Positions 18,698-31,318 of a DNA stretch of 37,056 nt are shown in pieces; position 1 is the first letter of the stretch; each line of letters opens with the position of its first letter. Below the pieces are notes generated by a model that was not told where the DNA came from, ran no database searches, and saw nothing but the letters and a program-made list of their open reading frames with translations. The DNA is from Candidatus Cloacimonadota bacterium. Its GTDB lineage: Bacteria; Cloacimonadota; Cloacimonadia; JGIOTU-2. Made by a program: the position numbers and the translations under genes. The stretch covers positions 1 through 37,056 of the forward strand of contig JAYEOL010000064.1 in NCBI GenBank assembly GCA_034722995.1, in the 5' to 3' direction.

Positions 18698-20716
18698 ATG
18701 GCAAAAGAAAAATATTTAGTTACCAGTGCTCTTCCATACGCTAATGGTGATTTGCATATTGGACATCTTGCAGGTGCATATCTACCTGCAGATATATTTG
18801 TAAGGTTTCAAAAATTGCTTGGAAATGATGTAATTTATATCTGTGGGACAGACGAACACGGTACACCAATTTCAATAAAAGCAGACCAGAAAAAAGTTCC
18901 TCCAAGAAAAATCGTAGCCAAATACCATAGAAGAATCAAATCGGTTTTTGAAGGACTTAATTTTTGTTTTGATAATTTTTCAGGAACTGCTCGTCCAGTG
19001 CACTACGAAATCTCACAGAAATTCTTTACCAATCTATTAAAAAATGGTTATATAACCACACATACAAACAAACAGCTTTATTGTCCTCATTGTAAACGCT
19101 TTTTGCCGGACAGATATGTTGAAGGTGAATGTCCATTTTGTCATTCTAAAGAAGCTCGGGGAGACCAATGTGATGCTTGTGGAAAACTTATTGACGCCAT
19201 TCAACTAATAAATCCTGTTTGCATAACATGTGGCGATACACCAATTATTAAAGAAACAACAAACTGGTTTCTGAATCTGCCGAAATTTTCAGATAAACTT
19301 AAAAAATGGATTGAATCAAAAACTGAGTGGAAAGATAATGTTAAAAAGTTCATCCTTGGCTGGTTAAAATCTGGCTTAAAAGAAAGAGCAATTACCCGAG
19401 ACCTTGATTGGGGTGTTCCAGTTCCTCTTGAAAATGCAAAAGGGAAGGTAATTTATGTCTGGTTTGAGGCTCCAATCGGATACATTTCATCAACTATTGA
19501 ATGGGCAGAAAGAATTGGTCAACCAGAAAAATGGAAAGATTACTGGTTTGATAAAGAAAGAAAACTAATTCATTTTATCGGTAAAGACAACATTCCATTT
19601 CATACAATAATTTGGCCCGCTGTTCTGATGGGTCAAGACGAAGATTATATCTTACCTTATGATGTTCCAGCAAATGAATATCTTAATCTGGAAGGAAGGA
19701 AAATCTCCACAAGCAAAAACTGGGCTGTGTGGATTAATGAATATTTAGAAGATTTCCCTGCTGACCCGTTACGGTATTATCTCGCTGCCAATGCTCCTGA
19801 AAACAAGGACTGTGATTTTGTATGGAAAGAATTTCAAGAAAAATATAATACAGATTTAGCGAACATCCTTGGTAATTTTGCTAATCGTGTATTTAAATTT
19901 TCAAAAAGATATTTTGATGGAAAAATTTGTATTCCAAAAACATTTTCAAATTTATCAAATGAAACTTGGATAAATGCTCGTGCTATTGCTACAATTGAAG
20001 CAAAAGGTTATTATCAAAGTTATAAAGTACGAAAAGCTATAAAACGGATTATAGATATTGCTCGGGAGGGCAATAGATATTTCGATATAACAAAACCCTG
20101 GATTGAGATCAAACAGGATAAGAAAAAAGCTGAAGAAACTATTTTTATTTGTCTCGAACTTTTACGAATGATCTCAATAGTTCTCTCACCTATAATACCA
20201 GAAAGTATGAAAAAGCTTAGAAAAATGATGAATCTTCCTGATAAAATGTTATGGAAAAATATTAAGTATGAATTTAAAGAAGAAATTGTTTTAGGAAAAA
20301 TTGAAACACTCTTTGAAAAAATTTCTGATGATACAATAGAAAAACAGATAAAAAAATTGAAAGGAATCTATATGCATGAAGAAAAAAGCAAAAAAATAAT
20401 TGATTTTGAAACATTTCAGGAACTTGATTTAAGAATTGCAGAAATAATATCTGCAGAGAAAGTCAAAAATACAGATAAACTTCTGAAGTTGAAAATCGCA
20501 GTTGGAGATAATATCAAGCAGATTATAGCAGGAATTGTAAAACATTACGCAGTTGAAGATTTAATTGGCAAAAAAATTCTAATAATGAACAATCTCAAGC
20601 CAATCATTATCAAAGGCGAGAAATCTGAAGCAATGCTTTTGGCGGCAATTGATGGTGATAATTTGTCCCTTCTGATTCCGGAAAAAGATATTTCAAAAGG
20701 CAGCAAAGTGTTGTGA
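18698..20716 (+). CDS. metG: Methionyl-tRNA synthetase with C-terminal tRNA-binding domain
   Basis: A 672-aa cytoplasmic enzyme that charges tRNA-Met. The HIGH motif is in LPYANGDLHIGHLAGAYLP, a zinc-binding insert has four Cys pairs (CPHC, CPFC, CDAC, CITC), and the KMSKS loop appears as GRKISTSKNW. The anticodon-binding helical domain follows, and residues from about 565 form the EMAP/Arc1p-type tRNA-binding domain (FQELDLRIAEI, KLLKLKIAVGD, IIAGI, MNNLKP, GEKSEAMLLAA). The full length and all motifs suggest an active enzyme. The ribosome binding site is weak. Confidence 0.96.
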   Translation: MAKEKYLVTSALPYANGDLHIGHLAGAYLPADIFVRFQKLLGNDVIYICGTDEHGTPISIKADQKKVPPRKIVAKYHRRIKSVFEGLNFCFDNFSGTARPVHYEISQKFFTNLLKNGYITTHTNKQLYCPHCKRFLPDRYVEGECPFCHSKEARGDQCDACGKLIDAIQLINPVCITCGDTPIIKETTNWFLNLPKFSDKLKKWIESKTEWKDNVKKFILGWLKSGLKERAITRDLDWGVPVPLENAKGKVIYVWFEAPIGYISSTIEWAERIGQPEKWKDYWFDKERKLIHFIGKDNIPFHTIIWPAVLMGQDEDYILPYDVPANEYLNLEGRKISTSKNWAVWINEYLEDFPADPLRYYLAANAPENKDCDFVWKEFQEKYNTDLANILGNFANRVFKFSKRYFDGKICIPKTFSNLSNETWINARAIATIEAKGYYQSYKVRKAIKRIIDIAREGNRYFDITKPWIEIKQDKKKAEETIFICLELLRMISIVLSPIIPESMKKLRKMMNLPDKMLWKNIKYEFKEEIVLGKIETLFEKISDDTIEKQIKKLKGIYMHEEKSKKIIDFETFQELDLRIAEIISAEKVKNTDKLLKLKIAVGDNIKQIIAGIVKHYAVEDLIGKKILIMNNLKPIIIKGEKSEAMLLAAIDGDNLSLLIPEKDISKGSKVL

Positions 20717-20886
20717 TGAAAAAATTATCTCTTAACTTCCTTATCTCCATTATTATCTTAATTTTTCCAATCTTTTCATTATATAGCGCATCAAAAAGTA
20801 TAACTAATTTTCATATAGGTTTGCTTATATTTGGTTTCAAATTTTTGGTTAATTTCATCAACCGCAGTTTTGTAACCCAAATATAA
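20716..20886 (+). pseudogene. Truncated secreted-protein gene: signal peptide only, fused to the antisense of the barrel gene
   Basis: An ATG at 20716 overlaps the metG stop as TGATG. It encodes a good signal peptide (MKKLSLNFLISIIIL, then FPIFSLYSA), but after about 25 residues the frame runs into the 3' end of the convergent barrel gene and stops at 20886. This looks like a gene formerly coupled to metG whose body was lost when the minus-strand block to the right joined here. Confidence 0.45.
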
Positions 20887-22839
20887 ATTGCAATCAGGCT
20901 TGAATTCCCAGCGGAAATTAGAAAAGAAACCCAAATACATTGTTAGATCGTCAGACTTATAATTATTAAAACGCAACCCATTATTAAATGAGATATTATT
21001 ATAAATATCCAAACCAATATCTCCATTCGCTATCCAATATTCATCGTCAATTCCTGAATCCTCTGGTATGTCATACCACTTATAATTAGCTGCATAAACA
21101 CTATAGGAAAAGTATTTGGTTAAATTTCCCCAAACTGAAAACTTACTATAAAATTTATCATAAGTGTTAAAGAGATTGTAATTTAATTCTTTCCCTTTGC
21201 TAATGGTAATACTAAAACCAAACCAATTCAATTTATTCCAAGAAACACCACTGTAAACTTTGTGCCAATCAAAAATTTTGTTTAAATAATTTATCTGACC
21301 CATACAATATTTTGTCCATAAATTAATTTTATGTTGAGTATAACACCATACATTTATACCTATATTTTGGTCAAATAATTCTCCTGAACCATTGAACATA
21401 GCCTTTTGCCCCCATATACTACCTCCAAAATATTTAATTACTTTGCTATTAGGTTCTGTATATTGGTCGATATCTAAAAACATATTGTGATAATTTTTTT
21501 CATATATCTGTCCCATATCAACAAAATAATTTTTGCTTATTTTACCGCCCCCAACTGACCAAGAAAAATCTCCTTTCTTGCCATCATAATAACCATAAAC
21601 AGAGTAACCTTTTTTAATTTCTGTTTCATCTTTTATAGAAGTGTCTATCTCAAATTTTATCAATTGATTATTAGTAAATTCCCAAACAGGTTCAAGGTGA
21701 AATACTTCATTATGATAATTTTTATTCATTCTGTTTAATAAAGTCATTTGAACAGAGAAATTGTTCCATTTTGGTTTGAACGCAAGCATATTATAAATAT
21801 CATCGTAATTAGTTATTATTCCATCCTCTATTATCTTTTTATCCAGAGCAGATAGAAACCCATAAGAAAATCTTTCAGAATTTCCGGTCAATTTTATCCC
21901 ACATCGCGGTTGCATAATATGACGGGAATAAAATAATTCACTATCTACACCGAAAACATCCAAATCCTCTATAAAGAAAAACCTGTTTTCATGATAAGTT
22001 GGAGCATATATTAAATTATAAATATCAGCCTCAGAATCAATTGGAACATCAGAAAAATCAGGGTTAATACTTAACTTTAATTTTGTGGAAAAACTGGGGT
22101 TAAAAGAAAAATCCAATCCAACATTGTAAGGATCAAAAGATACTGTTTTCTCAATCATATCATACTTTTTGATAAGATATGGACTAAGACGGTAGTTTTT
22201 GGCTTTATTGATTTTTTCATTGATAGTAATATCATAAGCTTTACGAAAGTAATCTTTACCCATATTAGTCGGCATATAAGGAATAGAATAAAATTCGTCA
22301 TCTTTATAAAAATACCGAGTAAAAATTATATTCCATTTATATGGTGGGTTGCCAAAAAAACGTAGGTCTTTGAACGGGATTATCATTAAAGATTGCCAGA
22401 TATCCTCAGAAATTTCGTTTTTGTATGTATAATTACTATTCCAACCTAAGTCCATCTTCAAATCAGGATTGCGAATGCCATCATATTTATTACCAAAAGG
22501 AAAGGAACAAAACATATAGGCATAATAATTTTTTACATCTGTAATAATTTGTATTCTTAAAAAGTCATTATTAGACCATTCATCTTTTCCGACAAACTTT
22601 CCTCTGGCAAATTGTTCATCTATTTTTGCTTCCCAAAGCACATACAAATTATCCCCATCATGCCATAACCAAATATCTGTTTTAAGTGGGCAGGCAAGCG
22701 AATCCTTAGGATAAATTCGCACAAAATCTGAGAGATGATTGCTGTTGGTTTTGAGCTCTTCTTCAGAGAAAGGAATTTCTAAACCAAAGCAGTTTAATGA
22801 TAAAAAAATAATGATAGCGACTAATATGTATCCTCTTAT
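20791..22839 (-). CDS. DUF5916-type outer-membrane beta-barrel protein with CBM9-like N-terminus (likely ATA start)
   Basis: About 682 aa from ATA 22839, or 643 aa from the first usual start, GTG 22722. The N-terminal part (WLWHDGDNLYVLWEAKID, DIWQSLMIIPFKDLRF) is CBM9-like, and INPDFSDVPIDSEADIYNL then YHENRFFFIED is the DUF5916 signature. The rest is aromatic beta strands ending in ISYTF, the terminal aromatic of outer-membrane barrels. In frame upstream of GTG a signal peptide is encoded (RGYILVAIIIFLSLNCFG), with GGAG five bases before an ATA codon, so translation probably starts there. It follows the ABC exporter by 39 bases and could be its outer-membrane partner; ligand unknown. Confidence 0.8.
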   Translation of the reverse strand: MRGYILVAIIIFLSLNCFGLEIPFSEEELKTNSNHLSDFVRIYPKDSLACPLKTDIWLWHDGDNLYVLWEAKIDEQFARGKFVGKDEWSNNDFLRIQIITDVKNYYAYMFCSFPFGNKYDGIRNPDLKMDLGWNSNYTYKNEISEDIWQSLMIIPFKDLRFFGNPPYKWNIIFTRYFYKDDEFYSIPYMPTNMGKDYFRKAYDITINEKINKAKNYRLSPYLIKKYDMIEKTVSFDPYNVGLDFSFNPSFSTKLKLSINPDFSDVPIDSEADIYNLIYAPTYHENRFFFIEDLDVFGVDSELFYSRHIMQPRCGIKLTGNSERFSYGFLSALDKKIIEDGIITNYDDIYNMLAFKPKWNNFSVQMTLLNRMNKNYHNEVFHLEPVWEFTNNQLIKFEIDTSIKDETEIKKGYSVYGYYDGKKGDFSWSVGGGKISKNYFVDMGQIYEKNYHNMFLDIDQYTEPNSKVIKYFGGSIWGQKAMFNGSGELFDQNIGINVWCYTQHKINLWTKYCMGQINYLNKIFDWHKVYSGVSWNKLNWFGFSITISKGKELNYNLFNTYDKFYSKFSVWGNLTKYFSYSVYAANYKWYDIPEDSGIDDEYWIANGDIGLDIYNNISFNNGLRFNNYKSDDLTMYLGFFSNFRWEFKPDCNLYLGYKTAVDEINQKFETKYKQTYMKISYTF

Positions 22840-22878
22840 TTTAACTCCAATCTGATATAACTTCAGAGATATAGTTTT

Positions 22879-24777
22879 TTAAAATTTGTAATCATATAAT
22901 TTTTTATAATTGTTATTCATTTTAATTAACTCATTGTGAGTCCCTTGTTCTATAATTCTTCCATTATCCAGAACAAGAATTTTATTACATTTTCGCGTGA
23001 TTGTTAAATGATGTGTAATGACAAAAATAATCATATCTTCAGGCAAATTAATAATTGTTTTATTAATAAAGCTTTCACTTATCGGATCAATATTGGAGGT
23101 TGCTTCATCTAAAATCAATATCTTTGGATTTCTTATTAATGCTCGAGCAATTGCAATCCTCTGTTTCTGACCAACTGATAAATTCGCACCTTTTTCTCCA
23201 ACAATCGTTTTATATCCAATTGGTAATTGTTTGATAAACTCATCCGCATAAGCTTGTTTTGCAGATAAATAAATCTCCTCCTCGCTTGCTCGACCATTGC
23301 CAAATTTGATATTATTGTAAATCGTATCATTAAACAGATACGGTTCTTGCTCAACAATGGCTACCTGTCTTCGTAAAGCTATTAATTCTGATGTAACTAA
23401 TCTCCTACCATTTAGAATTATATCACCTTCATCTATCTCATATAAACCTGCAAGAAGTCGCAGTAAAGTTGTCTTTCCCCCTCCAGAACTGCCCACAATA
23501 CCTATCTTCTCACCATTTCTTGCTGTGAAACTTATTCCTTTTAATATTTCTTCTTCTACAATTTTATTTGTAATGAGATTTTTATCCTTAAGATTTTTAA
23601 ATTTTATTCCATTAATATCTTCTTCTCTGTGCCTCTGTGCCTCTGTGGCAACTCTTTTCTCATAGGAAAAATGAACATTCCCAAAAGCTAATTGCTCAAT
23701 CTTTTCTGGCAAAACTATCTCTTTATCTATCCTTTCTTCAGGCAAATCAAAAAGTTCTCTAACCCTTTCCAATGCCATTAGTGACTTCTGTATCTGTATA
23801 TTGACATTTATCAATCTACTTGTTGGACCAAACAAATAACCCACAAACGAATTGAAAGCAATGAGTGAACCGAGAGTTAGATTTCCCTGTATTATCTCAT
23901 AACCACCATAACCTATAATTACTATTGGTGCAAGTCCACCTAAAAAGCCGGTTACTGTGCTGTTGAGAAAAGATGTTTTTCCCAGTTTGATATTTGAACG
24001 AAATGCCTGCTTCGCTCTTTTGATATATCGCAAAAGATTGTATTTATATTTCAAAAAGACCTTAATCAACTCAACCATATTAAGCGACTCTTCTAATTGT
24101 CTCGTTGTCTGCGCATTATCCTCATAAAATACTTTTGATAATTTACGAATTATCTTGCTAAAATAGATTGTGGATGCTACAAAAAAAGGCAGAATTGTAA
24201 TGGAAATCAGTGCCAGTTTCCAGTGAATAATAAAGATTGCCATAACTCCAACAAGAAAGGTAAGAATATCCTTTATTATCATTATAACAGTATCAGCAAA
24301 CAAAGTTCGTATCCTGTCTGTATCGTCATTTATGCGGGAGATAAGATAACCTGTGCCGTATTTTTTGTTTATCTTAAGTGGAAGTTTATTTATTTTCTCC
24401 AGCAAATCCAATCTGATGCTTAAAATTACTTTTGTATTGATTTTGTAAAAGAGAAGTCCTTGAAAATAGCCAACTACTTTCATAAAGATAAGCAAGCCCA
24501 ATACAAGCAGGATTAAAAACAATAATTCTTGCAGGTTTTTGTTTGGAAGTGTTTTGTCTATTATGTGGCGTGTAATAAGCGGAGTGGGTAGGATGAGGAT
24601 GGAGAGAAGGAATACGGAGATGCCACCTATTATTAGACTGGTGATGTGTTTTTTGAAATATGGGGTGAGGAAGCGGAAAATGAGGTTAGTGTTCATTTGT
24701 TTATTTTCAAAAAGTAATGTACTTATTTTATTGCCAATAATTTTAAGTTTCCTCATCCTATAAACATAAATAGACAT
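22879..24777 (-). CDS. ABC exporter (fused membrane and ATPase domains)
   Basis: Up to 632 aa; ATG 24696 (MNTNLIFRFL) is an alternative start. Six membrane helices (about 40-320) are followed by a nucleotide-binding domain: Walker A GSSGGGKTTLL, Q-loop VEQEPYLF, signature LSVGQKQRIAIARAL, Walker B ILILDEATSNID, and the H-loop VITHHL. All motifs are intact. There is no C39 peptidase domain. Between the first ATPase strand (FGNVHFSYEKR) and ILKGISF lies an extra stretch of about 35 residues starting VATEAQRHREED, which is encoded by a dispersed repeat. It lies downstream of the peptide maturases and is the probable exporter of their product. Confidence 0.88.
   Translation of the reverse strand: MSIYVYRMRKLKIIGNKISTLLFENKQMNTNLIFRFLTPYFKKHITSLIIGGISVFLLSILILPTPLITRHIIDKTLPNKNLQELLFLILLVLGLLIFMKVVGYFQGLLFYKINTKVILSIRLDLLEKINKLPLKINKKYGTGYLISRINDDTDRIRTLFADTVIMIIKDILTFLVGVMAIFIIHWKLALISITILPFFVASTIYFSKIIRKLSKVFYEDNAQTTRQLEESLNMVELIKVFLKYKYNLLRYIKRAKQAFRSNIKLGKTSFLNSTVTGFLGGLAPIVIIGYGGYEIIQGNLTLGSLIAFNSFVGYLFGPTSRLINVNIQIQKSLMALERVRELFDLPEERIDKEIVLPEKIEQLAFGNVHFSYEKRVATEAQRHREEDINGIKFKNLKDKNLITNKIVEEEILKGISFTARNGEKIGIVGSSGGGKTTLLRLLAGLYEIDEGDIILNGRRLVTSELIALRRQVAIVEQEPYLFNDTIYNNIKFGNGRASEEEIYLSAKQAYADEFIKQLPIGYKTIVGEKGANLSVGQKQRIAIARALIRNPKILILDEATSNIDPISESFINKTIINLPEDMIIFVITHHLTITRKCNKILVLDNGRIIEQGTHNELIKMNNNYKKLYDYKF
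23620..23651. repeat. Dispersed CTCTGTGCC-type repeat inside the ABC transporter frame
   Basis: Three near-copies of CTCTGTGCC/CTCTGTGGC in tandem on the plus strand are read on the minus strand as ATEAQRHREE. I know this sequence as a short repeat that appears, often between genes, in many unrelated bacterial genomes. Here it keeps the frame open and lengthens a surface loop of the ATPase domain. Confidence 0.65.
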
Positions 24778-24982
24778 TTTTTCTTAAAAAGTATACTTTG
24801 TAATTGTATTTAATTCTTGAGTTTTTTTCAGTATTTATTTCATCAGTTTTTTTAGAAATATATTATTTATCTTGTGGATTCTATTTAAACAATTGCTTAG
24901 TAGTAACCTAAACAATGCTCGTAAAACAACTCAAATAAATATATACTTTTTAGACATACTACACTTTTAAATTATATTATCT

Positions 24983-25008
24983 AATTATCTAAAATTTTAT
25001 AGATAATT
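24983..25008 (-). terminator. AT-only hairpin at the end of the TraB-like gene
   Basis: AATTATCT (24983-24990) and AGATAATT (25001-25008) can pair around the stop codon, followed on the minus strand by T/A-rich DNA. The stem is weak, so partial read-through into the ABC transporter gene is likely. The gap up to 24778 holds no ORF I can support. Confidence 0.3.
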
Positions 25009-25647
25009 TTCTATATATTCAATAAATATATCGTTTCTTTGACTAAGTTTTTTGTTTAGCCAAAATTTATGTGCCAAACCTACTGTTATTAGAATCTTTT
25101 TCCTTGGGTTTTCTTTTATAGTAGCACTTATTTTCTCATAAAATTTCATGTTCCATTTTTCCTTTACCTCCCACAAACTGGGAAGAAGTTTTTTACAGTA
25201 TTCATAAGCCATTTCATATAACAAGTCGAACCTTTTAGACTGAAGCATTTTTAAATTTTCACAAACAACAATTTTTTGGAAAATTCGTTCAAATTCATAA
25301 TAACATTCTAGCCTAATATTCTCGATTAATTCTTCCTTCATCCTTTTAATTACTAAATCTCTTTCTTTTCCCCATGCCATACCTTCAGGAGTATTGGGTT
25401 GAATAGGAATAATATTATAACCTTCTTTGGAGGCAAGAGGAATAATTATTTCAGGATACTCAGGTTTCGATTTGCAGGTTATAATCCCATCTAGTTGATC
25501 CTGGCTCAATTCAGCACATATAATATCTGAATTTATCTTTTTAATGAGATTTTTTAGAACTTTCATACTATAATAAGAAATTTTATGATGAAGTTTATGT
25601 ATTGTGCCTAATACAATTACTTTCGGGGGTATTCTTTCCTGTTCCAT
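24997..25647 (-). CDS. TraB/PrgY/TIKI-fold protein in the peptide cluster
   Basis: A 216-aa protein. VIVLGTIHKLHH (G14, H17), IICAELSQDQLDG (E46) and, near the end, ILITVGLAHKFWL (G190, H193) match the conserved GxxH, Glu and GxxH positions of the TraB/PrgY/TIKI superfamily. Animal TIKI proteins are metalloproteases and enterococcal TraB/PrgY blunt peptide pheromone signals. No membrane helix is present, unlike PrgY. It lies 59 bases after the radical SAM maturase. A role in cutting or limiting the modified peptide is inferred from family and position, not shown. Confidence 0.65.
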   Translation of the reverse strand: MEQERIPPKVIVLGTIHKLHHKISYYSMKVLKNLIKKINSDIICAELSQDQLDGIITCKSKPEYPEIIIPLASKEGYNIIPIQPNTPEGMAWGKERDLVIKRMKEELIENIRLECYYEFERIFQKIVVCENLKMLQSKRFDLLYEMAYEYCKKLLPSLWEVKEKWNMKFYEKISATIKENPRKKILITVGLAHKFWLNKKLSQRNDIFIEYIENYL

Positions 25648-25706
25648 AATAATAATGAAAAGATTACTTGAATAATTCTTTAGTCAAATATTTCTTCAGG
25701 TAAAAT

Positions 25707-27050
25707 TTATTCAAAGTAAGTATCTACAAACCAATCTAAATATAACTTATAACTCAACTTTATTTGTGTACAAAAGGGGAATTTGCTCTTCTTTTTTGAT
25801 TTACAACCTCCATGACAAATAGGACGAAATTTACACTTACCACAAACTATATCATTAGTAAGATTCAACTCTGTCCAGTTTGCTAATTTACTTTCATTTA
25901 TAACTAACTTACCTTCTTTATCAATTTTACTAATAGAATCTTTTTTTTCAACCATCGCTGCACACTTATATATACGACACTTAGGACCGATCACAAAAGA
26001 ATCTAGCTTTTCAACTCCACAATATGTACCCCATCTTTTAATTGGTTTAAAAACAAATGGTACTTGCTTTGTACTTTTATCAATATTAATATATTTGTTG
26101 TATAATGTTAAAATCTTTGCTACTCGTTCAGGATGTTTATCAGGTGTAAACATTTTATCATAATGGTCTTTGGGCACAGTTGATAGCATAGATGTACTTT
26201 CAAATTCAAATATAACATCATCCCTGAGCTTTGGGGGAAAATTTTTTAAAAAATAATCCAGATAATCCAAATTTTCTTTATCTAAGTTTACTCTAATTTT
26301 TAATATTGTATCAATAGATTTTTTTTCTAAAAATGTTAACAGATTCTCCATAATTGTCTCATAGGTTCCCTTCCCATTTGCTAGTGGACGTCTCTTATCG
26401 TGAATTTCTTTTGGACCGTCTAATGTAATCATTATTTTTTGTAGATGAAATTCATCAATAAGGATTTGTGCTACCCTCCCTTTTAACAGGTAACCATTTG
26501 TTGACATTACAGAGTTGAATTCACAATTATTTTTTATACATATATTTCTAATTCTTGAATTTAATTTTCTTATTATTTCTAAGTTTAGCAATGGCTCTCC
26601 ACCATACCACGCAATTGATAAAGGTGAAGTTGATCGATATTTCACTTGATTGTCAATAAATTTCAAAATTCTTTCCATACATCCATTATTCATATAAATT
26701 TTTCTATGTCTTTCGTAACAATATACACATCTGAAATTACAGTCAAAAGTATTTACTATTGTTATTGAAAGACCTTTTGATCCATATTGAGCCAACAACT
26801 CTCTTGAACGTATTCGGTTATTTTCTTCATTTCTATTTTTAACAATGAAGCCACCTTTAATCAAATTATTTTTTATTTCTATCAAGTTCGTTTCCAAATT
26901 GGGAAAACTGTCTGGTTTCTTTATTATAGATAGAGCTTGCTTAAACTGTTGTTCATTTTTGAATTTCAATAGTGCACCTGTTAATAAATTTACACCCACA
27001 TAATTATTTTTAGGGGTTTTGCGAAATATATTATAATTCGATGCTTCCAT
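25707..27050 (-). CDS. Radical SAM/SPASM peptide maturase with PqqD-like (RRE) N-terminus
   Basis: A 447-aa enzyme. Residues 1-80 resemble the leader-binding PqqD/RRE fold (NYVGVNLLTGALLKF, LIKGGFIV). The radical SAM cluster motif is CNFRCVYC (C104, C108, C111), followed by the SAM-binding WYGGEPLLN (148-156) and MSTNGYLL. The C-terminal SPASM domain has C344, C358, C363, C403, C406, C412, C416 and C427 for two auxiliary Fe-S clusters. This architecture makes crosslinks or thioethers in ribosomal peptides. It sits seven bases after the SPASM-only protein and downstream of a 47-aa Cys-containing peptide gene, its likely substrate. Confidence 0.9.
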   Translation of the reverse strand: MEASNYNIFRKTPKNNYVGVNLLTGALLKFKNEQQFKQALSIIKKPDSFPNLETNLIEIKNNLIKGGFIVKNRNEENNRIRSRELLAQYGSKGLSITIVNTFDCNFRCVYCYERHRKIYMNNGCMERILKFIDNQVKYRSTSPLSIAWYGGEPLLNLEIIRKLNSRIRNICIKNNCEFNSVMSTNGYLLKGRVAQILIDEFHLQKIMITLDGPKEIHDKRRPLANGKGTYETIMENLLTFLEKKSIDTILKIRVNLDKENLDYLDYFLKNFPPKLRDDVIFEFESTSMLSTVPKDHYDKMFTPDKHPERVAKILTLYNKYINIDKSTKQVPFVFKPIKRWGTYCGVEKLDSFVIGPKCRIYKCAAMVEKKDSISKIDKEGKLVINESKLANWTELNLTNDIVCGKCKFRPICHGGCKSKKKSKFPFCTQIKLSYKLYLDWFVDTYFE

Positions 27051-27057
27051 AAATTAC

Positions 27058-28071
27058 TTACTCCTTTTTTACAAGGGGACAATTTGATAATAACTCATTC
27101 TTGCATCCTCCATAACAATATTCGAGAAAAGGACACTGAATGCATTGTTTTATTTCAAATGGATCCTTACTAATAAAAGAATAAAAAAGAGAAAAATTCC
27201 GTTTTTCAATTCCTTGCTCATTTATACTTCCAATAATTTTATTCTTAAAAAACTGAGAAAAACATTGATAAAAATTACCCTCTAAATCTATTAGAAAATG
27301 GTTCCAGTGTTCAGCAAAACAATATGAATAGTTTGTAAACCAATTAAATGTAAATGGGATTTCCCTGCTTTTTAATTCTTCTCTTAATAGATTGATAGAG
27401 GTAGTCTCAAAAAAAGAGAATTTAGAATTATGTAGAGCTTCTTTTTGCCAACATGGGAAAAAGGGTATCTTTACAACTTCAATAATATTTTTGTCTATCT
27501 TCTCTGATATTGAATCGACTAATTCAATAATATTTTTAGGATTTGAATGATTGTCAATATTATAAAAACATAATATCAGCTTCTGGAAAATACCCAAGCG
27601 ATTTAATCTTTTTATCCTTTCAGTATAAAATTTTATCTTTTCTAATAAATTTAATTCTTTTTCATTTATATCAAAAAATAAATAGTTAAAGTTAAAATAA
27701 TCTCTAAAATCTTTATTTGGTAATTTTAAAGAATTAATAGGATTAATAGGATGAAGCACTGTAAATAAATTTCCGGTACTATATCTACAAATTTTTCTAA
27801 GTTCATTAATTGCTTTAGCATATTTATTAATTGAATTTAGATTGGGCATATAAAATTGAACCCAAGTATGCTCCGCCATTTGAATTTTTTGTTTCAACCA
27901 TTTTATAATCTTTTCTTTTAACTTATTATGATCTTCTATTTTAAAAACAAAACTAATAAAAACAATATGACGACTGAACCTAATAAATTTATTCTTGAGA
28001 GATTTTACTTTTAATGACTCATTTTTTAATTTATTACTTCCCCCACATGTAAAATCTGAAATATTTAGCAT
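27058..28071 (-). CDS. SPASM-domain protein with degenerate radical SAM region
   Basis: A 337-aa protein preceded by AAGGA. The C-terminal 90 residues form a complete SPASM domain: C251, then DLEGNFYQC (C270), then CIQCPFLEYCYGGC (C310, C313, C319, C323) and C331. The N-terminal 250 residues have the length of a radical SAM barrel but lack the CxxxCxxC cluster motif and the GGEP motif. It is probably a non-catalytic partner of the downstream maturase, as in RiPP systems that pair a SPASM protein with another enzyme. Its own start includes DFTCGGSNK, of unknown meaning. Confidence 0.75.
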   Translation of the reverse strand: MLNISDFTCGGSNKLKNESLKVKSLKNKFIRFSRHIVFISFVFKIEDHNKLKEKIIKWLKQKIQMAEHTWVQFYMPNLNSINKYAKAINELRKICRYSTGNLFTVLHPINPINSLKLPNKDFRDYFNFNYLFFDINEKELNLLEKIKFYTERIKRLNRLGIFQKLILCFYNIDNHSNPKNIIELVDSISEKIDKNIIEVVKIPFFPCWQKEALHNSKFSFFETTSINLLREELKSREIPFTFNWFTNYSYCFAEHWNHFLIDLEGNFYQCFSQFFKNKIIGSINEQGIEKRNFSLFYSFISKDPFEIKQCIQCPFLEYCYGGCKNELLSNCPLVKKE

Positions 28072-28102
28072 TTTTCACATCCTTTTATATAAATTAAATA
28101 AA

Positions 28103-28132
28103 CTGGGGAGATAATTTGTTTCTTCTCCCCAG
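28103..28132 (-). terminator. Attenuator-like hairpin between peptide gene and maturases
   Basis: CTGGGGAGA (28103-28111) pairs perfectly with TCTCCCCAG (28124-28132), 12-nt loop. On the minus strand it is followed by TTTATTTAATTT. It lies after the peptide stop and before the SPASM gene, where partial termination would make more precursor than enzyme, a common layout in RiPP operons. Confidence 0.65.
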
Positions 28133-28150
28133 GTAAAACCCCACACGTTT

Positions 28151-28294
28151 TTATAGATTAGGTTTTTCATCTAGAATCGCTACACACTGTTCACCACCAC
28201 AATCAGCAAGTGGAACTGCAGACTTTGCAATATCTCCTTCTTTAAGAATAGTTATTTCCTCATCAAGCTGTATAGGGTTGATAAGAAATTTCAT
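28151..28294 (-). CDS. RiPP precursor peptide, 47 aa, C-x4-C core
   Basis: ATG 28294 follows a strong GGAGGAAG site and opens 47 codons to TAA 28151. The leader-like half (MKFLINPIQLDEEITILKEGD) is acidic and amphipathic. The C-terminal half has SAVPLADCGGEQCVAIL with C32 and C37, flanked by acidic D31, E35, D42 and E43. Size, leader/core split, and position just before a SPASM protein and a radical SAM/SPASM maturase fit a ribosomally made modified peptide. Cys-to-residue thioether links (sactipeptide or ranthipeptide type) are plausible. I do not recognise the precursor family. Confidence 0.75.
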   Translation of the reverse strand: MKFLINPIQLDEEITILKEGDIAKSAVPLADCGGEQCVAILDEKPNL

Positions 28295-28490
28295 TTCTTC
28301 CTCCATATTTTACCCTTGTCCACTTTTCCTTCTCACCCAGGAATTTATTTACCTCACGGCATAAGGCGAGAAGTATTCCCTCAGCAACAGTATGAATAGC
28401 CATTTCTGGTTTGCCATATCCAAAATGGAACTTCTCCCAGCCGGTCTGCCTCTCTACATTGGGAAGAAAAATAGAGATGCAGATATTCAA
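28263..28490 (-). pseudogene. Unrecognised protein fragment overlapping the peptide gene start
   Basis: A 75-codon open frame from TTG 28490 (or ATG 28404-28412 region, MAIHTVAEGILL) runs over the ribosome binding site and first codons of the precursor gene in another frame. The middle (EKFHFGYGKPEMAIHTVAEG, then REVNKFLGEKEKW) has the composition of real protein, but no family is recognised. It has no ribosome binding site of its own. I read it as a decayed gene end or an untranslated leader; a small real protein is possible. Confidence 0.25.
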
Positions 28491-28618
28491 GTGAATTTAT
28501 TTTTTCCAACCCATCGGATATACATCCAACGGGTTAAAATTACGAATATATTTCTCACAGAGGTGTGAGATAATTTAAATATTTTTTGATAAAGATATTG
28601 GTATTCTTTAACTTTCAT
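28487..28618 (-). other. Short ORF containing a dispersed palindrome, 43 aa
   Basis: An ATG at 28618 opens a 43-codon frame (MKVKEYQYLYQKIFKLSH at the start). Its second half spans an imperfect palindrome AACCCATCGGAT/ATCCAACGGGTT (28508-28535), related to 15331-15360. No ribosome binding site stands out. Probably leader region of the peptide operon or a remnant. Confidence 0.2.
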
Positions 28619-28672
28619 AATTTCTTATAAAATATTTTATGGGGCCTTTTAGGTAGCGTTATTTCACAAAAC

Positions 28673-28830
28673 AAAAAAGGACGCCACTTCCATAACGTCC
28701 TGTCTCAAGGTATACCCTACCTAATCACCAAGACATAAGAAAGTGCGTCCGAATTGGACGCAACCTTCTCACTTGCTCTGGTGATTCGATAAAATAGGTA
28801 TTTATGAGACAGAACCAGTAAAAGGTGCGA
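28673..28830 (-). ncRNA. Structured small RNA with intrinsic terminator (possibly 6S-like)
   Basis: On the minus strand a rod-like fold can be drawn: CTGTCTCA with TGAGACAG (28812-28805 and 28707-28700), TACCTA with TAGGTA, ATCACCA with TGGTGAT, GAGAAGG with CTTTCTT, and an apical TGCGTCC/GGACGCA stem with a 5-nt loop. Internal bulges separate the stems. It is followed by a second hairpin GGACGTTA/TGGCGTCC and TTTTTT (28678-28673), a classic terminator. Length about 150 nt and a long interrupted hairpin recall 6S RNA, but there is no diagnostic sequence. The T-run exists only on this strand, fixing the direction. Confidence 0.65.
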
Positions 28831-28923
28831 AAAATTTTTATTCTCGCTTTAAAACAGCTAAGTCATTTTTTTCCCTTAATTACAAATTAGTATATTTTTC
28901 ACATTTCATATTTTAAACCATTT

Positions 28924-29154
28924 TTATTTCAATAATTTTTTAAATTCTTCAATACCAATGTTTGCATCTTTTAGAATACTTTTTAACACTTTAGGGTGAA
29001 GAATTTTTCCTGAATGATAAGGAATTGTAACACGAGTATTTAGTTCATTTCGGTAAATTTTATGACTACCACTTTGTCGTACCAAATGGAATCCTAAATG
29101 TTTTAGTGCTTTTATAACTTTGTCAGCTGTAACTCTTGGTAGTTTTTCACTCAT
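28924..29154 (-). CDS. hicA: HicA-type mRNA interferase toxin
   Basis: A 76-aa protein with the double-stranded RNA-binding-like HicA fold: VIKALKHLGFHLVRQSGSHKIYRN with the catalytic histidine in GSHKIY, then TIPYHSGKILHPKVLKSILKDANI. It cuts mRNA when not bound by HicB. Its ATG overlaps the HicB stop by four bases (ATGA type), so the pair is translated together with the antitoxin first. Confidence 0.93.
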   Translation of the reverse strand: MSEKLPRVTADKVIKALKHLGFHLVRQSGSHKIYRNELNTRVTIPYHSGKILHPKVLKSILKDANIGIEEFKKLLK

Positions 29155-29375
29155 ATAGCCATTTTCATAGTCGTCAAACTAATCATTTCAATTTGCGGAA
29201 GCACTTCATCATTTTCTAATCTATCTTCAATATGAAGCCGAACAGCATCTCTAATATTTTCTAATGTCTCTTCATAAGTCATTCCTTGTGTATAGCACCC
29301 TTGTAACTCAGGACAAAATGCAAAGTAACCATCCTTGTCTTTTTCTGTCACAATGGAAAATTGATAATAATTCAT
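29151..29375 (-). CDS. hicB: HicB-type antitoxin
   Basis: A 74-aa protein with the HicB signature: FSIVTEKDKDGYFAFCPELQGCYTQGMTYEETLENIRDAVRLHIE. The RNase H-like fold inhibits HicA. No C-terminal DNA-binding domain is present, so autoregulation would need another factor. It is the first gene of the toxin-antitoxin pair, upstream of the small RNA and peptide locus. Confidence 0.93.
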   Translation of the reverse strand: MNYYQFSIVTEKDKDGYFAFCPELQGCYTQGMTYEETLENIRDAVRLHIEDRLENDEVLPQIEMISLTTMKMAI

Positions 29376-29452
29376 ATTTTATTTCTCCATCGTATTTCTT
29401 ATGTAATTATGTAAAAAAAATACAGAATTCATTTTATTCCATATCAAATTAT

Positions 29453-29562
29453 TTAGGGGGTATAATAACTTAGCTATTCTCTCTAATAGGGTGAACTAAC
29501 ATAATTTATCCGCAGACTGGCGGACGTGATAATCTAACTGTCATTTTATTACACCCCCTTAA
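29453..29562. repeat. MITE-like 110-bp element with terminal inverted repeats
   Basis: TTAGGGGGTATAATAA at 29453-29468 is mirrored by TTATTACACCCCCTTAA at 29546-29562, with one insertion and one mismatch. The middle has TCCGC...GGCGGA (29509-29524), related to the TCCGCCAG repeat at 7671-7715. No ORF. The element fills the gap (29376-29704) between the HicBA promoter side and the SpoIID gene. Confidence 0.4.
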
Positions 29563-29704
29563 CTTTGAAAAATATAGTACAAAATTAATATCCTTATTTT
29601 TATTCTGTCAAATTTTTCAGCAAATTTTTTTAATTTTTTTCAATAAATTCTCAAAAAACTAAAAAAGTTGACTGTTATTTCAATATCTTGATAAACTTTC
29701 TAAT

Positions 29705-31318
29705 ATGTTTAAAATAATATCTAACAAAATAACAAAAATTGTTGATGATTTTCTTTTATATCCCCTTACTCATCGGCTATGCATCAGATGGATTTCTTTA
29801 TTGTTTTTTACTTTCTTAGCCATTTCAAACTATGCAGCAGAAATCATGGATAATAAATTCTATATAGATGTAGAAATTCTGCCGAACGCAAATCAAATAC
29901 ATCTTAAATCAAATGGCAATCTTATTATCTCAGAAACAGACTCTCCATTTCAATTGGAATTTTCAAAGCCTGAATTATCTATTCAATTAACGGAAAAAGT
30001 AGAAACTTCACCTTATTGGAGAGTTGGAATAAAAAAATTCTCAGACAAAGTTAGTGCTGAAAAATTTTTAAAAAATTTTTCTGAATGCTTTGCTGAACCA
30101 TCATCAGAAATTGCTTATAAAAACAAAGAACTAAAGCAAATTAGCAATTATTCAGTGTATCTAAAAGAAAGGTTTAATTCATACGAATCGGCAAAAGCAA
30201 TGTGTGAGATGGATGGATGGATTGAAGAAAAATACTCTTTCTCCAATTCTGAAGTTTTGATTTATGACATCAAAAACGATAAAGAATATTTTCTCAATGC
30301 TCCTCTCAATATTACTTCTAACAAACCGATTATAGTTTTTCAAATTCCGAAAACAAATTTCTGGGATCCAAAACAATTTGTAACTCGTTCCTATGAAGGA
30401 AATCTCAAAATTCAGTTAAACCAGCTTGGCAAGATGAATCTTATTGCAAATGTTGAATTTGAAAGATATATTGCTGGAGTTGTGCCAAATGAAATTGGAG
30501 ATGACACTCCAATGGAAGCGATGAAAACACAAGCTATTGCCGCTCGCTCAGAAGCACTCTATAAAATAATTCACAAACAACATAAAGATGATGGTTTTGA
30601 CCTCTGCGCAAGTGTGCATTGCCAGGTTTTTTCAGGTCTTACTGATGTTACTAAAAAAGTAAAAAGGGCAGTTGGCGAAACCGAATATATGGTAGGCATT
30701 TATAATTTTGAAATTATCAATGCGGTATATTCAACTAATTGTGGAGGCATTACAGAAAATAGCAATAATGTTTGGGGCGGCAAATCTGTCCCCTATCTTA
30801 CAAGCATTTATGATGGAAAAAACAGTTACAAAATTAATCTAACTAATGAAAGTAAGGTAAAACAGTGGATATTGGGGAAACAACAAGTATTTTGCAATAC
30901 CGAAAATGAAAAGGGCTGGATAAAAAATTCCTACAAATGGAAAAAGGAATTCTTAAAAGAAGATTTAGAAGAACACCTAAATTCAATTTCAGATTTGGGA
31001 AAGTTGAAAGACATTAAAATCCTAAAAAGAGGAAATTCAGGTCGGATTTTAGAGCTTAAAATTATTGGCACAAAAAATGAGATACATCTAAATAATGAAT
31101 TGCAGATTAGACAAGCTTTTAGCGGCTTAAAGTCATCTCTGTTTTTTGTGCAGATAATTGGAAACAAAGTAATTTTTTCTGGTAAAGGTTCTGGTCACGG
31201 CGTTGGAATGTGTCAGGTTGGTGCCATCCAAATGGCGAAGGAAGGATATTCTGCAAAAGAGATTTTGAAGCATTACTATACTGGGATAAAGATAACAAAA
31301 ATTAAGTTATCAAATTAG
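29705..31318 (+). CDS. SpoIID/LytB domain protein with SPOR-like N-terminal region
   Basis: A 537-aa exported protein. A long basic start leads into a hydrophobic segment ending near residue 45 (FLAISNYAAE). Residues about 95-180 look like two SPOR-type repeats (YWRVGIKKFSDKVSAEKFL, YSVYLKERFNSYESAKAMC). The SpoIID domain follows: FERYIAGVVPNEIGDDTPMEAMKTQAIAARSEAL, LCASVHCQVFSGL, VYSTNCGGITENSNNVWGG and the end GHGVGMCQVGAIQMAKEGYSAKEIL. SpoIID proteins cut peptidoglycan glycans lacking stem peptides. The conserved Glu in VPNEIG is present. Confidence 0.92.
   Translation: MFKIISNKITKIVDDFLLYPLTHRLCIRWISLLFFTFLAISNYAAEIMDNKFYIDVEILPNANQIHLKSNGNLIISETDSPFQLEFSKPELSIQLTEKVETSPYWRVGIKKFSDKVSAEKFLKNFSECFAEPSSEIAYKNKELKQISNYSVYLKERFNSYESAKAMCEMDGWIEEKYSFSNSEVLIYDIKNDKEYFLNAPLNITSNKPIIVFQIPKTNFWDPKQFVTRSYEGNLKIQLNQLGKMNLIANVEFERYIAGVVPNEIGDDTPMEAMKTQAIAARSEALYKIIHKQHKDDGFDLCASVHCQVFSGLTDVTKKVKRAVGETEYMVGIYNFEIINAVYSTNCGGITENSNNVWGGKSVPYLTSIYDGKNSYKINLTNESKVKQWILGKQQVFCNTENEKGWIKNSYKWKKEFLKEDLEEHLNSISDLGKLKDIKILKRGNSGRILELKIIGTKNEIHLNNELQIRQAFSGLKSSLFFVQIIGNKVIFSGKGSGHGVGMCQVGAIQMAKEGYSAKEILKHYYTGIKITKIKLSN

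Follow-up and report, generated by a model that had tools for sequence, protein, structure and literature searches.

A probable acquired radical SAM/SPASM RiPP locus with an ABC exporter and an outer-membrane barrel in a Cloacimonadota genome

The DNA analysed here, referred to as the window, is a stretch of 37,056 nucleotides that makes up contig C64 in a Candidatus Cloacimonadota draft genome of 1.89 Mb and 75 contigs. The list of open reading frames (ORFs) contains all six genes that a preliminary description had placed on the minus strand, in the same positions and order: a short peptide, a SPASM protein, a radical SAM/SPASM maturase, a TIKI/TraB-like protein, an ABC exporter, and a barrel protein. 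The features of the region and the evidence on which each was assigned are as follows.

20731..29800, no strand: genomic island, approximate extent (metG lies next to spoIID in G001:C208 and G002:C74)
20791..22839, minus: outer-membrane barrel protein (AF2 model and Foldseek, relatives in RiPP operons, codon list)
22879..24777, minus: ABC exporter, fused permease and ATPase (PF00664 and PF00005)
24997..25647, minus: TIKI/Ere-like protein of 216 aa, proposed leader protease (motifs, AF2 model, EreC fold match)
25707..27050, minus: radical SAM/SPASM peptide maturase of 447 aa with an RRE-like N-terminus (NF038107, TIGR04334, PF04055, and CteB matches)
27058..28071, minus: SPASM-only protein of 337 aa lacking radical-SAM cysteines (TIGR04085 match, Cys inspection)
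28102..28133, minus: hairpin with a T-rich tail, probable attenuator (position between the peptide and enzyme genes)
28154..28294, minus: putative precursor peptide of 47 aa, MKFLINPIQLDEEITILKEGDIAKSAVPLADCGGEQCVAILDEKPNL (ORF with a ribosome site)
28662..28842, minus: structured RNA element of ~180 nt (fold z, covariation, copy survey)

The maturase carries CxxxCxxC at residue 104, GGEP at residue 150, and CX2CX5CX3C at residue 403, together with a 7-Cys SPASM domain, and thus has every motif of the full radical SAM/SPASM enzyme first described. It matches PF04055 (56.6 bits), NF038107 (CefB, E=4e-56), TIGR04334 (Clo7bot, E=5e-54), and the PDB entry of CteB (5wgg, E=4e-15). The CefB, Clo7bot, and TIGR04463 models cover nearly its whole length, with scores below the curated cut-off in each case (190.7 vs 600, 183.7 vs 600, and 170.6 vs 525 bits, respectively). 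Full-length similarity is thus seen to CefB, TIGR04463, and the ranthipeptide maturases CteB and PapB, and the differences from the CefB and TIGR04463 systems are these unreached cut-offs and a window precursor that is not Cys-rich. The N-terminal region of the maturase, which is conserved in its relatives, is covered by the CefB and Clo7bot profiles, the alignments starting at residues 1-3; a PDB sequence search with the alignment of this RRE-like region gave no match to an RRE. The best reading of the locus is a radical SAM/SPASM RiPP system in the maturase group of CefB, Clo7bot, and TIGR04463.

The 47-aa ORF, immediately upstream of the enzyme genes, has GGAGG five bases ahead of its ATG and contains CGGEQC, the C-x4-C core that had been noted for it. 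A search of its own genome found no second precursor copy. The leader, MKFLINPIQLDEE, resembles the precursors beside one other Cloacimonadota maturase (G072:C76) and beside clostridial Clo7bot maturases. Compared by its ten N-terminal residues among 1322 small ORFs, the window peptide came out best against the G072:C76 precursor and in the top 3-4 against the Clo7bot leaders; with eleven comparisons made, this likeness is suggestive rather than strong. The peptide would serve as the precursor, and its MKFLxNPxxxxEE leader may bind the RRE-like N-terminus of the maturase. Between the peptide and enzyme genes, the hairpin with its T-rich tail folds at -22.8 kcal/mol (z -2.8), and 1 of 200 shuffles folded equally well. 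Such an arrangement is a common means of yielding more precursor than enzyme, which is the role we infer for it.

Two observations had been named beforehand as arguments against a RiPP locus, namely relatives of the maturase standing without a nearby small peptide and loss of the Cys pair among neighbours. The first was not encountered, as the closely examined relatives have such a peptide, and small Cys peptides accompany the related maturases of G072 (twice), G061, G032, G029, and G007. As to the second, the exact pair is not kept among neighbours, and the number of Cys varies. Collectively, the maturase family, the adjoining peptide, the leader likeness, and the small peptides beside related maturases make the RiPP nature of the locus well supported.

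PapB links Cys to Asp or Glu across 0-6 residues (PMC9413430). The core of the window peptide offers C32-X2-E35 and C37-X4-D42, both spacings lying within this range, and on this basis the predicted mass loss is 2 or 4 Da. The maturase would cross-link both cysteines of the core, thioethers to acidic residues close by being the most likely bonds, with C32 to E35 and C37 to D42 as possible pairs (-2 Da each), and it could also form other links. The product of the cassette would most likely be a small chemically cross-linked peptide. A quite improbable alternative is an intracellular cofactor or protein-like product, as with PQQ and mycofactocin, the transporter being incidental. The low number of Cys (two) and the shortness of the core would suit such a product, and the HicAB neighbourhood in the island says little on role, whereas the patchy occurrence of the maturase (matches at E<=1e-8 in 17 of the 125 phylum genomes surveyed, the window's own included), the transporter and envelope genes, and the variable cores fit a secreted, diversifying product better.

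The SPASM-only gene is 7 bases from the maturase gene. Its product scores 40 bits against TIGR04085 (cut-off 27) and has all 7 SPASM Cys and a complete CX2CX5CX3C with no CxxxCxxC, in agreement with its initial description as a SPASM protein lacking the radical-SAM cysteines. RiPP loci of Bacteroidales are known to include pseudo-radical-SAM partners (PMC10352776). These partners (IPR026418, TIGR04150) and the grasp-with-spasm proteins (TIGR04193) resemble the window arrangement in placing a SPASM protein beside a peptide-modifying enzyme (PMC10352776, PMC8939145), whereas the window protein matches neither TIGR04150 nor TIGR04193 at E<=1 and the window has no ATP-grasp enzyme. No close relative of the protein was found, and none beside another maturase. 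Origin as a decayed radical SAM enzyme was considered and is not supported: the 7 SPASM Cys are kept, but residues 1-235 score no better than shuffles against a maturase profile and thus show no detectable homology to radical SAM enzymes. From its position, the SPASM-only protein is probably a non-catalytic partner that would hold the substrate or pass electrons.

The GxxH, E, and GxxH motifs of the TIKI/Ere-like protein are invariant in 5 relatives. The earlier assignment to the TraB/TIKI fold draws on these motifs and a weak fold match; the Pfam TraB model (TraB/PrgY/GumN, PF01963) reaches 14.7 bits, below its gathering cut-off of 26.8, and DUF5694 reaches 19.5 bits, under its cut-off of 27.5. 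The two best PDB fold matches of the AF2 model (pLDDT 88.7) are erythromycin esterase EreC, at E 0.03-0.05 and TM about 0.35 (E=0.03 and TM 0.34 for the best); another Ere-like structure is also among the closest, and all these matches are weak. A PDB sequence search with the alignment of this family gave nothing useful, and a scan with the same alignment found three relatives. Apart from the window, G007 is the only genome in which the gene lies behind a maturase; in G006 and Aegiribacteria no maturase is near it, the Aegiribacteria relative having no RiPP genes around it, and we therefore regard it as accessory. Tiki/TraB peptidases beside RiPP enzymes have been noted in graspetide loci (branch 2), where they were proposed for leader cleavage (PMC8939145); those loci use ATP-grasp chemistry, in contrast to the radical SAM/SPASM chemistry of the window. 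Because the ABC exporter lacks a peptidase domain (a Pfam search found no C39 domain in it), leader cleavage would be the most economical role, and the TIKI/Ere-like protein may remove the leader in the cytosol.

A similar layout is found in the Clo7bot loci (TIGR04334, ctpM; e.g. Paraclostridium bifermentans plasmid NZ_CP079738), which share with the window an MKF(I/L)xxP leader, a radical SAM/SPASM maturase with a similar N-terminal domain, and the order of precursor, maturase, small protease-like gene (~206 aa), and ABC transporter. The TIKI-like gene of the window occupies the slot of the 206-aa HExxH protein. Unlike the window, the Clo7bot loci have seven or so tandem Cys-rich precursors and the HExxH protein in place of a TIKI-like one, and they have neither a SPASM-only protein nor, being Gram-positive, an outer-membrane barrel.

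The ABC exporter gene is present at 22879-24777 as first described, and its product is 62% identical to an exporter encoded between two maturases in G007; it would carry the peptide product over the inner membrane. The gap between the TIKI-like and ABC genes, about 220-300 bases, is the longest in the cluster. An 81% relative of the exporter in G001 lies beside TolC and adaptor genes with no maturase, and a close relative in G007:C70 is likewise beside TolC and adaptor genes.

In the reading frame of the barrel gene, no ATG, GTG, or TTG occurs between the ABC stop codon and the GTG at 22722 (window 22722-22881). The signal-peptide-like stretch begins near an ATA at 22839, which is preceded by GGAG five bases ahead. 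This abnormal start is equally consistent with a sequencing error, a rare start codon, or decay. The AF2 model consists of a beta-sandwich and many long antiparallel strands forming a large barrel, and its fold matches in Foldseek are the outer-membrane barrels LptD, FimD, and TonB receptors, with E from 7e-6. The signal-like stretch, the antiparallel strands, and the aromatic C-terminus (SYTF) are those of an outer-membrane beta-barrel, although the pTM of the model is only 0.51. The preliminary description had named the protein a DUF5916 barrel; the barrel is supported by the model and its fold matches, and the DUF5916 label, given by eye, is not, as no Pfam or NCBIfam model, DUF5916 included, matches at E<=1. 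DUF5916 likewise failed to match two paralogues and two RiPP-linked barrel relatives at E<=1.

A first contig scan with the window maturase as the query found no relative. Four more intact loci (G072:C110, G072:C76, G061:C3, and G022:C14) have a member of the barrel family next to a RiPP maturase; they share with the window a Cys peptide, a maturase, an ABC transporter, and a barrel of the same family, and they differ from it in having no SPASM-only or TIKI-like gene and in their varying gene order and ABC type. Furthermore, at G098:C214 the end of a more distant barrel relative lies with a small ORF and the maturase that scores highest against CefB (349 bits), and ABC transporters are present in most of the barrel-maturase loci (G072 twice, G061, G022, and G098). 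In G022:C14, a small Cys peptide, a radical SAM/SPASM enzyme from a different subfamily, an ABC exporter, and a barrel follow in that order, which is the window order minus the two extra genes. With the window left out, three co-localisations of barrel and maturase (G072:C110, G072:C76, and G061:C3) compare with 0.15 expected, a rough Poisson P of about 5e-4. G007 is from a different genus within the family; there, a maturase end with 58% identity precedes a TIKI-like gene with 45% identity, and another contig carries a Cys peptide, a maturase, a propeller lipoprotein, the 62%-identical ABC transporter, and a second maturase. The co-occurrence that the preliminary description proposed to look for is seen for peptide, maturase, ABC transporter, and barrel, and for the TIKI-like gene beside a maturase only in G007. 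The presence of similar clusters in other genomes indicates that the six-gene cluster is more than a chance arrangement.

Several RiPP cassettes of G007 (L013 = G007:C5, L012 = G007:C160) include 6-bladed-propeller lipoproteins (DUF5128); a HExxH protein behind a SPASM fragment was also observed, and a sequence common to both contig ends suggests further copies. A second precursor family, CYGLCxxLCxFLCGCPP, lies beside a maturase and an ABC transporter in G032 and G029 (L011 2763-2942, L016 3463-3600). A sigma-70-like protein of 363-387 aa is encoded ahead of the barrel cassette (L074 5105-6268, L142 9374-10465), in G072:C76, which has the maturase and peptide, as well as in G020:C25, which has lost both.

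The barrel family itself is widespread, occurring in 87 of the 125 phylum genomes, mostly in one or two copies, and paralogues stand away from any maturase in the window's own genome and in G001. In the barrel tree, RiPP-linked copies are scattered among lineage-specific barrels, which rejects a single dedicated clade of RiPP barrels and indicates that the barrel-RiPP link is recurrent and not one inherited operon. The barrel, and perhaps the ABC transporter, could be unrelated neighbours in the island, leaving a system of peptide, SPASM-only protein, maturase, and TIKI-like protein. Barrel paralogues away from maturases in most genomes, the close ABC relatives beside TolC and adaptor genes, the long gap ahead of the ABC gene, and the absence of an ordinary start codon in the window barrel would agree with this, whereas the peptide-maturase-ABC-barrel operons recur in other genera, one of them with a different maturase subfamily. 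We largely set the barrel aside as a mere neighbour once these operons appeared, and keep this reading as an unlikely rival.

Some loci have lost their biosynthetic genes. G042:C109 and G020:C49 contain maturase remnants only, and in G020:C25 the maturase and peptide are gone; the ABC and barrel ORFs are intact in all three. The ABC transporter in G061, G042, and G020:C49 comprises one ATPase and two ABC-2 permeases, a LanFEG-like layout of the kind found in lantibiotic immunity. These observations suggest another reading of the same RiPP locus, in which the ABC transporter and barrel form an immunity module that keeps the peptide off an envelope target or replaces that target, and that is kept after the biosynthetic genes decay. 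Immunity accounts for the persistence of ABC and barrel no less well than export does, and ordinary barrel copies elsewhere in the genome would agree with this reading. In contrast, the window's transporter is of the fused exporter type, draft assemblies may be missing genes by chance, barrel genes may just be slower to decay, and the RiPP-linked barrels are not a single clade. We consider the immunity reading, including the retention of the module after decay, a credible one that falls somewhat short of probable. The barrel may thus work with the ABC transporter as a passage or binding protein, or serve in self-protection. Of the initial proposal that the whole set makes, processes, and exports one peptide across two membranes, the RiPP nature and the link to the barrel family (G072 twice, G061, G022, and a remote relative in G098) are supported; export through the barrel would be one reading, the pattern in G020 and G042 agreeing no less well with immunity, the TIKI-like gene appears accessory, and the SPASM-only protein has no relative beside a maturase.

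Comparison with two genomes of the same genus places the locus in a genomic island. The cluster (20.8-28.3 kb) and a HicAB pair at 28924-29375, inside the island extent, are missing from G001 and G002, where the gap between the alignable parts of metG and spoIID is ~394 bases (G001:C208) and ~58 bases (G002:C74); in G002 the spoIID start lies directly behind metG. In the window, a short vestigial signal-peptide-like ORF (20713-20886) lies behind metG at the expected spoIID start, and the N-terminus of the present spoIID differs (29705-29800), the two marking the island ends. From this ORF, the insertion seems to have cut off the start of spoIID. Short palindromic repeats (AACCCGTTGGATGTATATCCGATGGGTT and a relative) flank the HicAB stretch at about 28509-28540 and 29770-29795, and parts of repeats of this type are found again elsewhere in G000 and G001.

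Taken as a whole, the set is an island between metG and spoIID and, with good probability, an acquired RiPP locus with the steps proposed above. The weak points of this explanation are the scores below the curated cut-offs, the SPASM-only protein with no relative, the weak TIKI fold match, the gap ahead of the ABC gene, and the barrel start. TIKI/TraB proteins and pseudo-radical-SAM partners have already been reported in RiPP loci, and what is new is the combination, especially the ABC transporter with the barrel. Among open-licence papers, we found none on Clo7bot, DUF5916, or Cloacimonadota RiPPs, and no report of a recurrent ABC transporter and outer-membrane barrel beside RiPP maturases; this recurrence in Cloacimonadota is the strongest new point. 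With slightly less than even confidence, we propose an undescribed Gram-negative RiPP group of Cloacimonadota, whose hallmark would be a two-membrane module for export or self-protection, formed by an ABC transporter together with an outer-membrane protein of sandwich-and-barrel build, with different maturase subfamilies, and to which the window would add a SPASM-only partner and a TIKI-type leader protease. Apart from a few microcins and darobactin-like peptides, little is known of how RiPPs of Gram-negative bacteria pass the outer membrane or leave it unharmed. A barrel found repeatedly next to maturases and ABC transporters, in a phylum that has hardly been studied, is a testable candidate for the outer-membrane step, and the locus also offers a SPASM-only partner and a protease type testable as a leader peptidase. 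If the barrel is a protected copy of the target, it would point to the target of the peptide.

As a side find outside the RiPP locus proper, the structured RNA element lies upstream of the peptide gene, between it and hicA. It folds with a z of -7.1, and its 51 consensus pairs, 17 of them with changes on both sides, are paired in 96% of cells, with 80 double-change cells against 25 in shuffles. Two stems are hypervariable in sequence yet complementary, and an intrinsic terminator stands at the end. An Rfam search of 20-32 kb of the window gave no match, and a covariance model found the element at full length at 48 places in 15 of the 125 phylum genomes, with up to 15 copies per genome. Most of the 12 copies viewed have a same-strand gene downstream, sometimes within a few bases, and the element may be a leader RNA or an insulator.
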